Below, piece by piece: positions 6,354 to 9,073 of a stretch of 9,270 nt of DNA. Numbering within the stretch: position 1 is the first letter of the stretch; each line of letters begins with the position of its first letter. Origin of the DNA: Chloroflexota bacterium (lineage in GTDB: Bacteria > Chloroflexota > Anaerolineae > Anaerolineales > Anaerolineaceae); contig JAAZPN010000097.1 of assembly GCA_012797215.1 (NCBI GenBank), positions 1-9,270 of the forward strand. Reading direction: 5' to 3'. A program made the translations under genes and the position numbers. The notes below the pieces were generated by a model, which did no database searches, was not told the origin of the DNA, and was given only the letters and a program-made list of their open reading frames with translations.

Positions 6354-6986
6354 ATGGATAAATTTATCGTGGTTGCAGGCAATATTGGCGCGGGGAAGTC
6401 CACCCTGGTTCAAATACTAAGTGAACGGCTGGGCTTTAAGCCTTTTTTTGAGCCGGTAAATGACAATCCCTACCTGGAAGACTTCTATCGCAACATGGAA
6501 ACCTGGTCTTTCCATTCGCAGCTATATTTCCTCACCCGCCGTCTGCGCATCCATAAACAGCTGCTGGACGCGGAAGGCTCTGTGGTTCAGGATCGCTCGG
6601 TCTACGAGGACGCGGAAGTTTTTGCGCGCAACCTGTATTTGCAAGGGGATATGAGCACCCGTGATTACGGCGTTTACCAGGATCTTTACCGCATCCTGAT
6701 TGATTTGCTCCCGCCTCCCAACCTGGTGGTCTATTTGCGAACCTCGGTTGATACGCTTTTGGAAAGAATCAACACGCGCGGACGCGGTTTTGAGGCAGGC
6801 ATATCCCGCAGCTACCTGGACCGGCTGAACGCGCTGTATGAGGAGTGGATCAACTCCTTTATCCAATGCCCGGTCCTGATTATTCCGAGCGATAATCTTA
6901 ACCTTGTCTCCAGCAGCGCCCATATCAGCCAGGTTGTGCAGCTGGTGCAAGAGCGCTTGATGGGCAAAACTGAAGTCAGCCTTTAA
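6354..6986 (+). CDS. Deoxynucleoside kinase, Dck-like (deoxyadenosine/deoxycytidine kinase type)
   Basis: The enzyme phosphorylates deoxynucleosides at the 5' position with ATP in dNTP salvage. The 210-residue product has the P-loop GNIGAGKST (9-17), the substrate-site stretch FFEPVNDNPYLEDFY (31-45), WSFHSQLYFL (51-60), QDRSVYEDAEVFA (79-91; the DRS motif) and a LID with RINTRGRGFE (138-147). As I recall the Bacillus subtilis proteins, QDRSxYED and the later CPVL segment match Dck more than Dgk, so a dAdo/dCyd preference is likely but unproven. A good Shine-Dalgarno, AAGGCGG, ends five bases before ATG. It has its own leader and a terminator directly after it, so it is probably a single-gene unit. 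It lies immediately left of the origin-like region, and a sister kinase lies on the far side. Confidence 0.92.
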   Translation: MDKFIVVAGNIGAGKSTLVQILSERLGFKPFFEPVNDNPYLEDFYRNMETWSFHSQLYFLTRRLRIHKQLLDAEGSVVQDRSVYEDAEVFARNLYLQGDMSTRDYGVYQDLYRILIDLLPPPNLVVYLRTSVDTLLERINTRGRGFEAGISRSYLDRLNALYEEWINSFIQCPVLIIPSDNLNLVSSSAHISQVVQLVQERLMGKTEVSL

Positions 6987-7006
6987 AACAGTTCACGTCA
7001 TCAATT

Positions 7007-7037
7007 AACGGAGTTCATATTTTTGGGCTCCGTTTTT
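7007..7037 (+). terminator. Rho-independent terminator after the Dck-type kinase gene
   Basis: AACGGAG (7007-7013) and CTCCGTT (7028-7034) form a perfect 7-bp stem with a 14-base loop, and a TTTTT run follows at 7033-7037. It stands 20 bases after the kinase stop codon. It would stop + strand transcription before it enters the AT-rich part of the origin-like region. Confidence 0.7.
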
Positions 7038-7076
7038 AATTTTAATTAACCCTTTTATTGGTTTGTATTTAATTAA
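7033..7076. other. AT-rich DNA-unwinding element of the putative oriC
   Basis: 38 of 44 bases are A or T, in a window that is otherwise clearly GC-richer. It begins in the T-run of the upstream terminator and ends exactly where the DnaA-trio-like triplets start, which is the expected place for duplex opening. It contains TTAATT runs and two TTAATTAA-like segments. Confidence 0.65.
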
Positions 7077-7096
7077 GTAGTAATAATCGTAGGGGG
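7075..7096 (+). promoter_or_regulatory. DnaA-trio-like element with G-rich spacer
   Basis: Read on the + strand the triplets are AAG TAG TAA TAA TCG TAG, followed by GGGG and then a DnaA box. The known DnaA-trio motif is 3'-(G/A)AT-5', i.e. TAG or TAA in this reading, and four of the six triplets match it exactly. Order and polarity (AT-rich DNA, trios, G/C cluster, tandem boxes) agree with the published bacterial basal unwinding system, where trios guide DnaA onto single-stranded DNA. Confidence 0.7.
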
Positions 7097-7113
7097 TGTG
7101 GAAAAGTGGAAAA
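7097..7113 (-). promoter_or_regulatory. Two tandem DnaA boxes next to the trio element
   Basis: Read on the minus strand, 7097-7105 gives TTTTCCACA (8 of 9 to TTATCCACA) and 7105-7113 gives TTTTCCACT (7 of 9). They overlap by one base and point the same way. Paired boxes beside the trios are what the Bacillus-type opening module has. Confidence 0.7.
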
Positions 7114-7210
7114 AGTCCCTGCCAAAGAATAGAAGCCCCAACATAGCGAAGTTTTTACCAGTAAAAGCGCATATTTGCTGAATAAACTTTCAATTCAGAC
7201 AAATTGCCGC

Positions 7211-7282
7211 TGTGGAAAAGTGACTAAATATTTGTGGAAAGAAAATTGGTGCGTGGATATTTTTCTGCAATAGCGCGGATAA
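7211..7282 (-). promoter_or_regulatory. Central cluster of DnaA-box-like sites
   Basis: Four minus-strand 9-mers resemble the DnaA box: TTTTCCACA (7211-7219), CTTTCCACA (7233-7241), ATATCCACG (7252-7260) and TTATCCGCG (7274-7282). The first fits the loose consensus TTWTNCACA. The others have two mismatches to TTATCCACA and are individually weak. Their common orientation and spacing of about 20 bases (22, 19 and 22) support them as a group. Confidence 0.55.
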
Positions 7283-7333
7283 CAGCAGAATATTCAACAA
7301 TTTTCCCCGGGATTCATAGAAAATTTGCTCGAG

Positions 7334-7386
7334 TTATTCACATTTCTACAGACTTATCCACAGTTTTTTGGCACTTATCCACAGTT
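7334..7386 (+). promoter_or_regulatory. Three plus-strand DnaA boxes, two of them perfect
   Basis: TTATTCACA (7334-7342), TTATCCACA (7354-7362) and TTATCCACA (7375-7383) are phased 20 and 21 bases apart, i.e. about two helical turns. The last two sit in an identical 14-base repeat, ACTTATCCACAGTT (7352-7365 and 7373-7386). A further weaker minus-strand site, TTTTCCACG, lies at 7400-7408. The perfect boxes point the opposite way to those beside the trio element. Confidence 0.8.
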
Positions 7387-7412
7387 GGCGTGGGTTGTTC
7401 GTGGAAAAATGC

Positions 7413-8420
7413 TCAAAGACCGTATTCGGCTTTCAAATCTACCAACGCGGCTTCGGCGTGATCTAAAAAGTGATCTAGTCGTTCAATCTGTTCTTCTTTG
7501 ACGGAGGGATTAATTTCCAGCGTCTCCAGAAATTTCTCCCAGGCTTCTTCCTGTGCAGGGTCTTCTGATAACACTTGCGCGGCCTGATGCCAGGTTTCCA
7601 CCATTGGCCAGAGCGCGGCGTGAGGAACTCCGCTTTCTACCATCGCTGCGCAGCTGTTCACAAAATACCCCTTTCGCGCCGGTAATAAGTTTGGCGGGCA
7701 GCCAGGCGTTTTTGCCGCCGCAGTCAGCGCGTTTTCCCAGACCGGGCACCAAGTGTTGAACGTGTCAGCATTAATTGGCACTCGGCTGATAAGCTGCAGC
7801 AGTTCGCCGGTTAGTTCCAGCTTCCCGAGCGCTTCCGCGCGGGCAGGGAACTCCAACAACATGCGCCGCGTAGTTAGCGCCGGACCGTTTAAAATCGCCA
7901 GGGCATTGGCCGCGCTGCCAACCGCTTTGTAATACAGGTCAGTCCACACGCCGAAAGGAAGTTCCTGGGGGTCTTCCAGTTCAAACCAAAGCTGGCGGGC
8001 TTTTTCCGCGGCGGCTTGCCCGCGGGAGTAGAGCGTTTCGGGGCTATTGAAGTTCGCGCTCACGCCTGCCTGAATAAACTCCAGCCAATGGTCCGTGTCG
8101 TAAAGAATGGCGCTGTGGTCGCACAACGCGAACCCCAGCCAAGGGTTCAGGCGCAAACGGCGGTGAAAGGTGTAGAAAGACTGGTGGTGATGCTGCACAT
8201 CCAGCGAGATTTCGTAGCTGATGCGCTGCACTTCCCGCTCAAAGAGTGGATTCTCTTTGTGCACAACTACTAAATCGATATCCGTGCTGCCGCCTATCAA
8301 CGGGTCTTCCGTCAAAATAGAGCCGGTAAAGTACACAGCGACGATGTCATTTGTCTGGCGCAGTTTTTTTGCCGCATAATCCTTGGCAAATTTAACCAAC
8401 AAATCCCGGGTAATGTGCAC
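7413..8420 (-). CDS. Pol-beta-superfamily nucleotidyltransferase of unknown substrate
   Basis: This 335-residue protein carries the nucleotidyltransferase signature TGSILTEDPLIGGSTDIDL at residues 32-50. It has the GS pair at 33-34 and metal-binding aspartates 47 and 49, and a likely third acid is D74 in ISLDVQHHH. Such enzymes transfer a nucleotide to an antibiotic, protein or RNA, and the substrate cannot be read from sequence. Residues about 145-335 look helical, in the style of the helical C-terminal domains of kanamycin-nucleotidyltransferase-like proteins or HEPN-like partners. The start is GTG, backed by a strong AAGGAG five bases upstream. It is 14 bases after the Dgk-type kinase gene, so the two form an operon. 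No separate toxin-antitoxin partner is visible. Its 3' end abuts the origin-like region, and I see no terminator there. The fold is well supported; the role is unknown. Confidence 0.85.
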   Translation of the reverse strand: MHITRDLLVKFAKDYAAKKLRQTNDIVAVYFTGSILTEDPLIGGSTDIDLVVVHKENPLFEREVQRISYEISLDVQHHHQSFYTFHRRLRLNPWLGFALCDHSAILYDTDHWLEFIQAGVSANFNSPETLYSRGQAAAEKARQLWFELEDPQELPFGVWTDLYYKAVGSAANALAILNGPALTTRRMLLEFPARAEALGKLELTGELLQLISRVPINADTFNTWCPVWENALTAAAKTPGCPPNLLPARKGYFVNSCAAMVESGVPHAALWPMVETWHQAAQVLSEDPAQEEAWEKFLETLEINPSVKEEQIERLDHFLDHAEAALVDLKAEYGL

Positions 8421-8434
8421 GATATCTCCTTGTT

Positions 8435-9073
8435 TCAGCCTTCCAACGGCAGGCTTTCCTGAAACGGCGCGATGCGCAGCGTCTGCCGGATGCGGTTGAT
8501 GACATAGTTCAGGTCGTCCGGGCGTGCCACGATGTTCAGGGTGTCTGTTTCGATAGGCAGAAGCCTTCCGTCCCAGCGCGGGTCGGCAAAGAATGCTTCG
8601 TAGGCCTGGTTTAGTTCGTCGATATAAGCGCGGTCCATGCCGCGTTCATAAGGGCGGTCGCGGTGCGCGATGCGCTGCATGAGTGTATCGGTGCTGGCAC
8701 GCAGAAAAACCACCAGGTCTGGCTGGGGAATCTTTTCGGCCAGGGCTTGGTGTACGCGATGGTACATCGCCAGTTCGTCGCCGGTCAGGTTGATGCCGGC
8801 AAAGAGCGCGTCCTTTTCGAAGGTATAGTCGGAAATAATGGTTCTCCCGGCAGCGAGCGTATCCGGTATGACCCGATGCTGCTGCTGATAGCGGCTTAAC
8901 AAAAAGAAAATTTGGGTCTGAAACGCGTAGCGGCTGCGGTCGCTGTAAAAATCGCTCAGAAAGGGATTTTCCTCGAAGACTTCCAGAAGCAGGTCGGCAG
9001 CAAAAGCGGAGTGGACGAAGCGGGCAAGCGTGGTTTTCCCTACGCCTATCACACCTTCTATGGCAATGAACAT
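8435..9073 (-). CDS. Deoxynucleoside kinase, Dgk-like (deoxyguanosine/purine type)
   Basis: This is a 212-residue kinase of the same fold as the Dck-like enzyme on the other side of the origin-like region. It has the P-loop GVIGVGKTT (7-15), FEENPFLSDFY (33-43), YAFQTQIFFLLSRYQQ (49-64) and a LID RIAHRDRPYE (134-143). Where Dck proteins have ERS or DRS, this one reads SDYTFEKDALFA (81-92). As I recall it, Bacillus subtilis Dgk has a closely similar ADYxxYKxxxFA, hence the purine-type call; substrate preference remains inference. The ATG start has AGGAG nine bases upstream. It is the first gene of a two-gene operon with the nucleotidyltransferase. The 5' leader has a 7-base inverted repeat close to the start. 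Having both Dck and Dgk types suggests full deoxynucleoside salvage. Confidence 0.92.
   Translation of the reverse strand: MFIAIEGVIGVGKTTLARFVHSAFAADLLLEVFEENPFLSDFYSDRSRYAFQTQIFFLLSRYQQQHRVIPDTLAAGRTIISDYTFEKDALFAGINLTGDELAMYHRVHQALAEKIPQPDLVVFLRASTDTLMQRIAHRDRPYERGMDRAYIDELNQAYEAFFADPRWDGRLLPIETDTLNIVARPDDLNYVINRIRQTLRIAPFQESLPLEG

Follow-up and report, generated by a model that had tools for sequence, protein, structure and literature searches.

Where does chromosome replication start in the Anaerolineales when the customary landmark is missing? Chromosomal origins are usually marked by the dnaA gene, and no dnaA is present in the window, that is, the whole 9.3-kb stretch of DNA analysed here (9,270 nucleotides). 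An earlier note on this DNA had nevertheless read an intergenic gap in it as an origin-like module, with about eleven DnaA-box-like sites, two of them perfect, an AT-rich unwinding stretch, and neither dnaA nor dnaN nearby. The results described below allow us to predict, with high confidence, that this gap (6987-7412) is the chromosomal oriC of an Anaerolineales bacterium, of the same general kind as Bacillus incC and with dnaA at a distance; the tests that could be run in relatives thus support the earlier interpretation. The most telling parts, an opening element built of tandem boxes and DnaA-trios and a regularly spaced box triplet, were absent from that note.

The gap comprises 426 bases, exactly as first described, and has a GC content of 37%. 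A scan for sites with at most two mismatches to TTATCCACA returned ten boxes (starts 7097, 7105, 7211, 7233, 7252, 7274, 7334, 7354, 7375 and 7400), so that the perfect pair at 7354-7362 and 7375-7383 stands but the count of eleven does not. Comparison with 2000 dinucleotide-preserving shuffles clearly showed clustering beyond chance: two perfect boxes vs. a shuffle mean of 0.00 (maximum 1), five with at most one mismatch vs. 0.12 (maximum 2), and ten with at most two mismatches vs. 1.64 (maximum 7), none of the 2000 shuffles matching the observed number in any of the three mismatch classes. In the window as a whole, 34 box-like sites were counted vs. 16.3 expected, and 0 of 200 shuffles reached 34. 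The AT-rich unwinding stretch was likewise confirmed, the 60-mers of lowest GC content in the gap (18%) starting at 7032-7033 and adjoining the boxes, as in an oriC. The features of the locus are collected in the table.

Table. Features of the gap and its flanking genes, in window coordinates; NTase, nucleotidyltransferase-like gene.
Feature	Position	Strand	Basis
Deoxynucleoside kinase gene, left neighbour, pointing at the gap	6354-6986	+	PF01712, E 3.7e-56
Terminator-like hairpin with T tail, between the kinase gene and the AT-rich stretch	7007-7034	+	11 pairs
AT-rich unwinding stretch (DUE); the DnaA-trios form its right part	7033-7092		60-mers with 18% GC
Whole opening module (basal unwinding system)	7071-7116	-	46-nt profile, 52.5 bits; next best in window -1.8
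DnaA-trios 5'-AAG-TAG-TAA-TAA-TCG-TAG-3'	7075-7092	+	Sequence; middle A in 5/6
GC cluster (GGGG), between boxes and trios	7093-7096		Sequence; G/C-rich in the module alignment
Trio-proximal DnaA box TTTTCCACA	7097-7105	-	1 mismatch; position conserved
Second DnaA box of the tandem, TTTTCCACT, overlapping the first by one base	7105-7113	-	2 mismatches; position conserved
Four further DnaA boxes	7211-7282 (7211, 7233, 7252, 7274)	-	1-2 mismatches; placement here differs among loci
Triplet box 1 TTATTCACA	7334-7342	+	1 mismatch
Triplet box 2, perfect TTATCCACA	7354-7362	+	Box scan and triplet scan
Triplet box 3, perfect TTATCCACA	7375-7383	+	Box scan and triplet scan
Weak DnaA box TTTTCCACG adjoining the NTase stop	7400-7408	-	2 mismatches
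NTase, ending at the gap	7413-8420	-	Weak Pfam NTP_transf_2; module after NTase in 66/75 loci
Second deoxynucleoside kinase gene, adjoining the NTase	8435-9073	-	PF01712, E 6.3e-34

Other roles for the gap were considered and rejected. The kinase and NTase genes converge on it, and it therefore cannot be the promoter of either; no sigma-70-like site was found in 6900-7500, where 1.1 would be expected. Nor does it look like an RNA gene, as no Rfam family reached its gathering score within the window. The terminator-like hairpin is weak on its own, since the shuffles are expected to yield 0.6 such structures against the one observed.

Of the two neighbours named in the earlier note, the deoxynucleoside kinase has a strong Pfam match, and the nucleotidyltransferase of the window a weak one to NTP_transf_2 (E 0.0011, 19.7 bits, cut-off 21); within the NTase family, 15 of 16 members match this Pfam entry at E≤1, with a best value of 3.4e-5. 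The surrounding genes are mostly of housekeeping types (NAD synthase, CinA, ComEC, kinases), and the nearest named protein relatives belong to Anaerolineaceae or Chloroflexi/Chloroflexota. The gene families on the kinase side of the gap vary among relatives: a match to the left kinase, with identity up to 97.6%, lies within 4 kb after the NTase in 22/80 loci. Two kinase paralogues flank the block of origin and NTase in the window, and 65 of 81 sequences contain frames of the same kinase family, so that the dosage of nucleotide-salvage genes near the origin may matter. In the 66 module-bearing loci, the NTase ends toward the origin, i.e., it is read against the fork.

The opening module was compared with the published rule for basal unwinding systems, which asks for a box with at most two mismatches, an optional second box with at most four, a spacer of 0-16 nt and at least three NAN trios (PMC8287927, section 13). 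Judged by eye rather than with the authors' program, the window fits this rule: TTTTCCACA has one mismatch, TTTTCCACT has two, and four consecutive trios, TAA-TAA-TAG-AAG when read outward from the box, begin 10 nt away from it. The consensus of the aligned gaps consists of a pair of abutting boxes together with a GC cluster and a repeat of TAC/TAN.

The second part of the locus is the box triplet, which lies 217 nt from the module and on the opposite strand. The window thus possesses a distal box set besides the trio-proximal pair, as in incC. With spacings of 19-22 nt allowed and three mismatches in all, a triplet with spacings of 20-22 nt was found in 68 of 77 gaps, in 52 of them with exactly the 20/21 spacing of the window; it was missing in L023, L024, L025, L047, L055, L069, L073, L074 and L076. 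Boxes on the triplet strand peak 200-300 nt before the module in the relatives. Since 20/21 nt corresponds to about two helical turns, this arrangement fits binding on one face of the DNA, and its conservation would be in keeping with helical phasing.

To follow the locus across relatives, one genome per species was scanned with an alignment of 16 NTase sequences, and the best 80 of 81 relatives were retained, with NTase identities from 89% down to 31%; having been found via the NTase, these loci are biased toward genomes that keep it. The box cluster, whose presence in relatives at the same locus had been proposed as a check, was indeed there: in 71 of the 80 loci, the 700 nt that follow the NTase contain at least three boxes with at most one mismatch. 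The cluster was missing from this stretch in L047, L055, L069, L073, L074 and L076; L014, L026 and L078, with at most 200 nt of sequence after the NTase, are also counted among the nine loci without it. The sets used for the profile (76 sequences) and for the triplet (77 sequences) include the window and omit loci with less than about 300 nt after the NTase.

The 46-nt module profile, trained on 66 gaps including that of the window, gave 19.7-58.8 bits in 66 of 76 gaps (window included), the remaining ten falling below -18 bits. As the profile was trained on gaps that it scores, shuffled gaps and a wider scan serve as the fair controls. The former reached a maximum of -3.3 bits (n=380); in the latter, scores at the gap were 42.6 (G001), 47.5 (G021), 52.5 (G026) and 54.2 bits (G027), vs. 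at most 8.8 bits off the gap in 1.67, 0.70, 0.24 and 0.20 Mb of these genomes, respectively. In G001, the complete genome of Leptolinea sp. HRD-7 (AP024710.1; 3,573,743 bases), the module model had one match at E≤0.01 among the matches listed, at 1,036,577. With the window not counted, a search of the 1.4 kb that follow the NTase located the module in 66 of 75 loci and not in the other 9. In one of these, L069, the module (L069:1295, minus strand) is some 9 kb away from the NTase (at 10001), beside other genes; it adjoins a small reading frame, OsmC-like by eye, of a family found after the gap in several other loci. This is a rearrangement separating the NTase from the origin. The gaps of L041, L043 and L065 keep the triplet, with no module found in the locus sequence; their module may have moved or changed.

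The triplet is also rare elsewhere. A background scan of 2.75 Mb of sampled sequence, counting at most one triplet per piece and strand, yielded three, two of which are the origins of G001 and G021. The third lies in G027 (C9, about 182.7 kb; L245:2738-2788), about 29 kb from the origin, with a 21/21 spacing, no opening module near it, and a position just past the 3' end of a frame resembling, by eye, an ABC-F ATPase; it is possibly a DnaA-titration or regulatory site. The perfect triplet occurs once in complete G001 (1,036,303-1,036,352); across the phylum, 6 of 61 genomes have it, with one copy each, while the reversed control pattern was found in none.

We then asked where dnaA and dnaN lie in the relatives. 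A search for dnaA covered 40 of the 80 locus genomes and found the gene in 39 (none in G004); 30 dnaA loci of 3.5 kb were read, and the contig bearing the NTase could be placed in 11 of the 40. The claim that dnaA is not near holds well beyond the window, in which the gap differs from a canonical origin with dnaA at its side: dnaA lies 332 kb from the gap in G001 (at 703,690), 446 kb away in G021, and on another contig than the NTase in 9 of the 11 relatives placed. The 30 dnaA loci have at most 2 boxes per 500 nt and no module (maximum 8.6 bits). Leptolinea HRD-7 has two boxes, one of them perfect, about 250-320 nt upstream of its dnaA frame (L084:780-846), which would fit self-regulation of dnaA; it is the only one of the 30 dnaA loci with a pair of boxes inside 500 nt. 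As for dnaN, its absence from the vicinity is true of the window but not of most relatives placed. In 9 of the 11, the dnaN with the best score shares a contig with the NTase, about 6-78 kb off, and lies within 25 kb in 7 of the 11 (about 6-20 kb); it is farther away in G029 (about 48 kb) and G039 (about 78 kb), and on other contigs in G030 and G040. In G002, a close relative of the window, neither dnaA nor dnaN is on the contig of the module.

A turn of the GC skew at the gap, another check proposed in the earlier note, was observed in four relatives, with the cumulative minimum of G001 50 kb off. For G001, the skew was calculated from 80 pieces, each of 20 kb, and six further ones for filling in, and for G021, G026 and G027 from sampled contigs. 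The sampled cumulative skew of G001 has one main minimum, at about 0.95 Mb, and one main maximum, at about 2.82 Mb, the latter being separated from the gap (1.036 Mb) by half a chromosome; after filling in, the minimum is at 986,009, i.e., 1.4% of the chromosome from the gap. On contig C3 of G021, the pieces centred at 925 and 957 kb bracket the sampled minimum; the module of this contig is at about 947.9 kb, its dnaA at 501.7 kb. A lesser local minimum is seen at about 565 kb, some 63 kb from dnaA, and of the five pieces right of the turn, the one at 1,055 kb has a negative skew. For G026, the skew is negative in each of the five samples to the left of the gap and positive in each of the six to the right, the corresponding numbers in G027 being 3/4 and 5/5. 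More generally, the skew is higher right of the gap than left of it in 38 of 42 loci with enough flank (mean difference 0.063) and runs in the wrong direction in the other 4, vs. a positive difference at 36 of 79 control midpoints of G001 pieces (mean -0.002). The skew of the window itself is weak (-0.003 left, +0.023 right). Reasoning from these relatives, its genome would likewise turn its skew at the gap and carry dnaA elsewhere.

To see how far the arrangement extends, the class Anaerolineae was searched with stricter filters, all figures referring to the matches listed. The module model matched 262 of 396 class genomes at E≤0.01. Among 20 module-bearing genomes picked for long contigs, 10 have the module and dnaA on one contig: the two are about 1 kb apart in G341, G289 and G362, and at least 112 kb apart in G337, G418, G387, G070, G067, G252 and G151. 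In the three adjacent cases, the dnaA reading frame ends 380-711 nt before the module, and a triplet (20/21, 20/22 and 20/21, respectively) is found downstream of dnaA, at a distance of about 250-270 nt from the module. These origins have the same triplet and module as the window and differ in their position downstream of dnaA. The same two-part structure beside dnaA indicates that the element in the window is the counterpart of dnaA-adjacent origins, and dnaA and the origin appear to have come apart in this class. In the four distal cases read, the triplet is present in G387, degenerate in G337 and absent in G107 and G418. Of the best 30 class matches, 23 have a triplet on the expected strand and side; it is missing there in L256, L264, L268, L272, L273, L276 and L278, of which L268, with no box at one mismatch or fewer nearby, may be a chance match. 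A clear NTase was found in 10 of the 20 genomes. It is close to the module, at about 1.2 kb or less, in G272, G308 and G343 alone; in the remaining ones, it lies on a different contig or at least about 35 kb off. For dnaN, the distance to the module is at most 40 kb in 10 of the 20.

The closest known parallel is B. subtilis incC. According to PMC6669920 (sections 5 and 15), incC needs the trio-proximal pair 6/7 as well as the distal boxes 1/2/3, and the helical phasing of the distal box is consistent with looping. Tandem boxes, a GC cluster, DnaA-trios and a separate distal set of three boxes are common to both systems in what these sections and those of PMC8287927 describe. The differences are that incC lies between dnaA and dnaN, whereas dnaA is far off in the relatives here, and that the same sections hold no description of a group-wide regular 20/21 triplet spacing. 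The oriC of Thermotoga maritima, as presented in the portion of PMC10316083 consulted, also combines a box cluster with TAG-repeat trinucleotides in an AT-rich unwinding element, but has five boxes in a 149-bp minimal origin, and no distal triplet is described in that portion. Origins away from dnaA are already established: E. coli and many other bacteria have oriC in another gene context (PMC4285127, section 4), and Synechococcus elongatus has it near dnaN and away from dnaA (PMC7198777, in part). The excerpts of the latter paper show the same separation of dnaA from dnaN, with the origin near dnaN and the skew turn; the phylum is different, however, and here the neighbours are the NTase and a deoxynucleoside kinase, with dnaN about 6-78 kb off in 9 relatives. 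What is notable in the present case is the rigid layout. No paper on an Anaerolineae or Chloroflexota origin was found by title or the start of the abstract, one MAG's origin is mentioned in PMC11964896, and a DoriC prediction for cultured Anaerolinea may exist.

By analogy with these systems, the locus may work as follows. DnaA, encoded elsewhere on the chromosome, would bind two box sets in the gap: a distal one, the triplet (7334-7383), whose sites, spaced by about two helical turns, would share one face of the DNA, and a proximal one, the tandem pair (7097-7113). From the tandem pair, DnaA would load across the GC cluster onto the DnaA-trios and open the AT-rich stretch. The triplet, about 220 nt from the module and facing it, would collect DnaA and deliver more of it by looping, and forks would then leave in both directions.

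Could the boxes serve another purpose? A datA-like titration site consists of boxes without an opening element, away from the skew turn. The gap, in contrast, combines its boxes with a module bearing trios and lies at or near the skew turn in relatives, and both elements are rare in the sampled genomes. The lone triplet of G027, which lacks the module, indicates that such clusters can occur away from an origin, and one might accordingly imagine a titration or regulatory cluster, datA-like or in a DnaA-controlled promoter, with the true origin elsewhere, e.g., at dnaA. The 30 dnaA loci have no such clusters, however, and both neighbours of the gap point into it, which makes it a promoter of neither; we consider this explanation very unlikely.

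The secondary minimum in the sampled skew of G021 might suggest that the gap is one of several origins per chromosome, only the strongest of which shapes the skew. Complete G001, with one module match among those listed, one perfect triplet genome-wide and one main skew minimum and maximum, argues against this, and such a multiplicity seems very improbable. Since the window may be a metagenome record, we also considered whether the gap could be the replication origin of a mobile element, such as a plasmid or phage, that has integrated. This we reject as extremely unlikely: the place is conserved, the box cluster following the NTase in 71/80 relatives; the element is present in a complete 3.57-Mb chromosome near the skew minimum; and the neighbours are mostly housekeeping genes. 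The gap is thus best regarded as the predicted chromosomal oriC.

Beyond this locus, we lean, with distinctly less assurance, toward the view that the origin of the lineage is a conserved cassette, in which a 20/21 triplet, about 220-300 nt of intervening DNA and a tandem-box/DnaA-trio element keep the same geometry whether dnaA is adjacent or hundreds of kb off. If this is true, an origin has been uncoupled from its initiator gene across a lineage with its mechanism unchanged, and the phased triplet would be a fixed array for DnaA delivery. The prediction provides a replication start at the sequence level for the large and mostly uncultured Anaerolineales. With it, metagenome-assembled genomes could be given correct coordinates, their growth rates estimated from read depth and their strand bias studied; origin predictors relying on dnaA would search in the wrong place. 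In addition, the strict layout of triplet plus opening element, with and without dnaA adjacent, makes the two-part model of Bacillus testable in a distant phylum.
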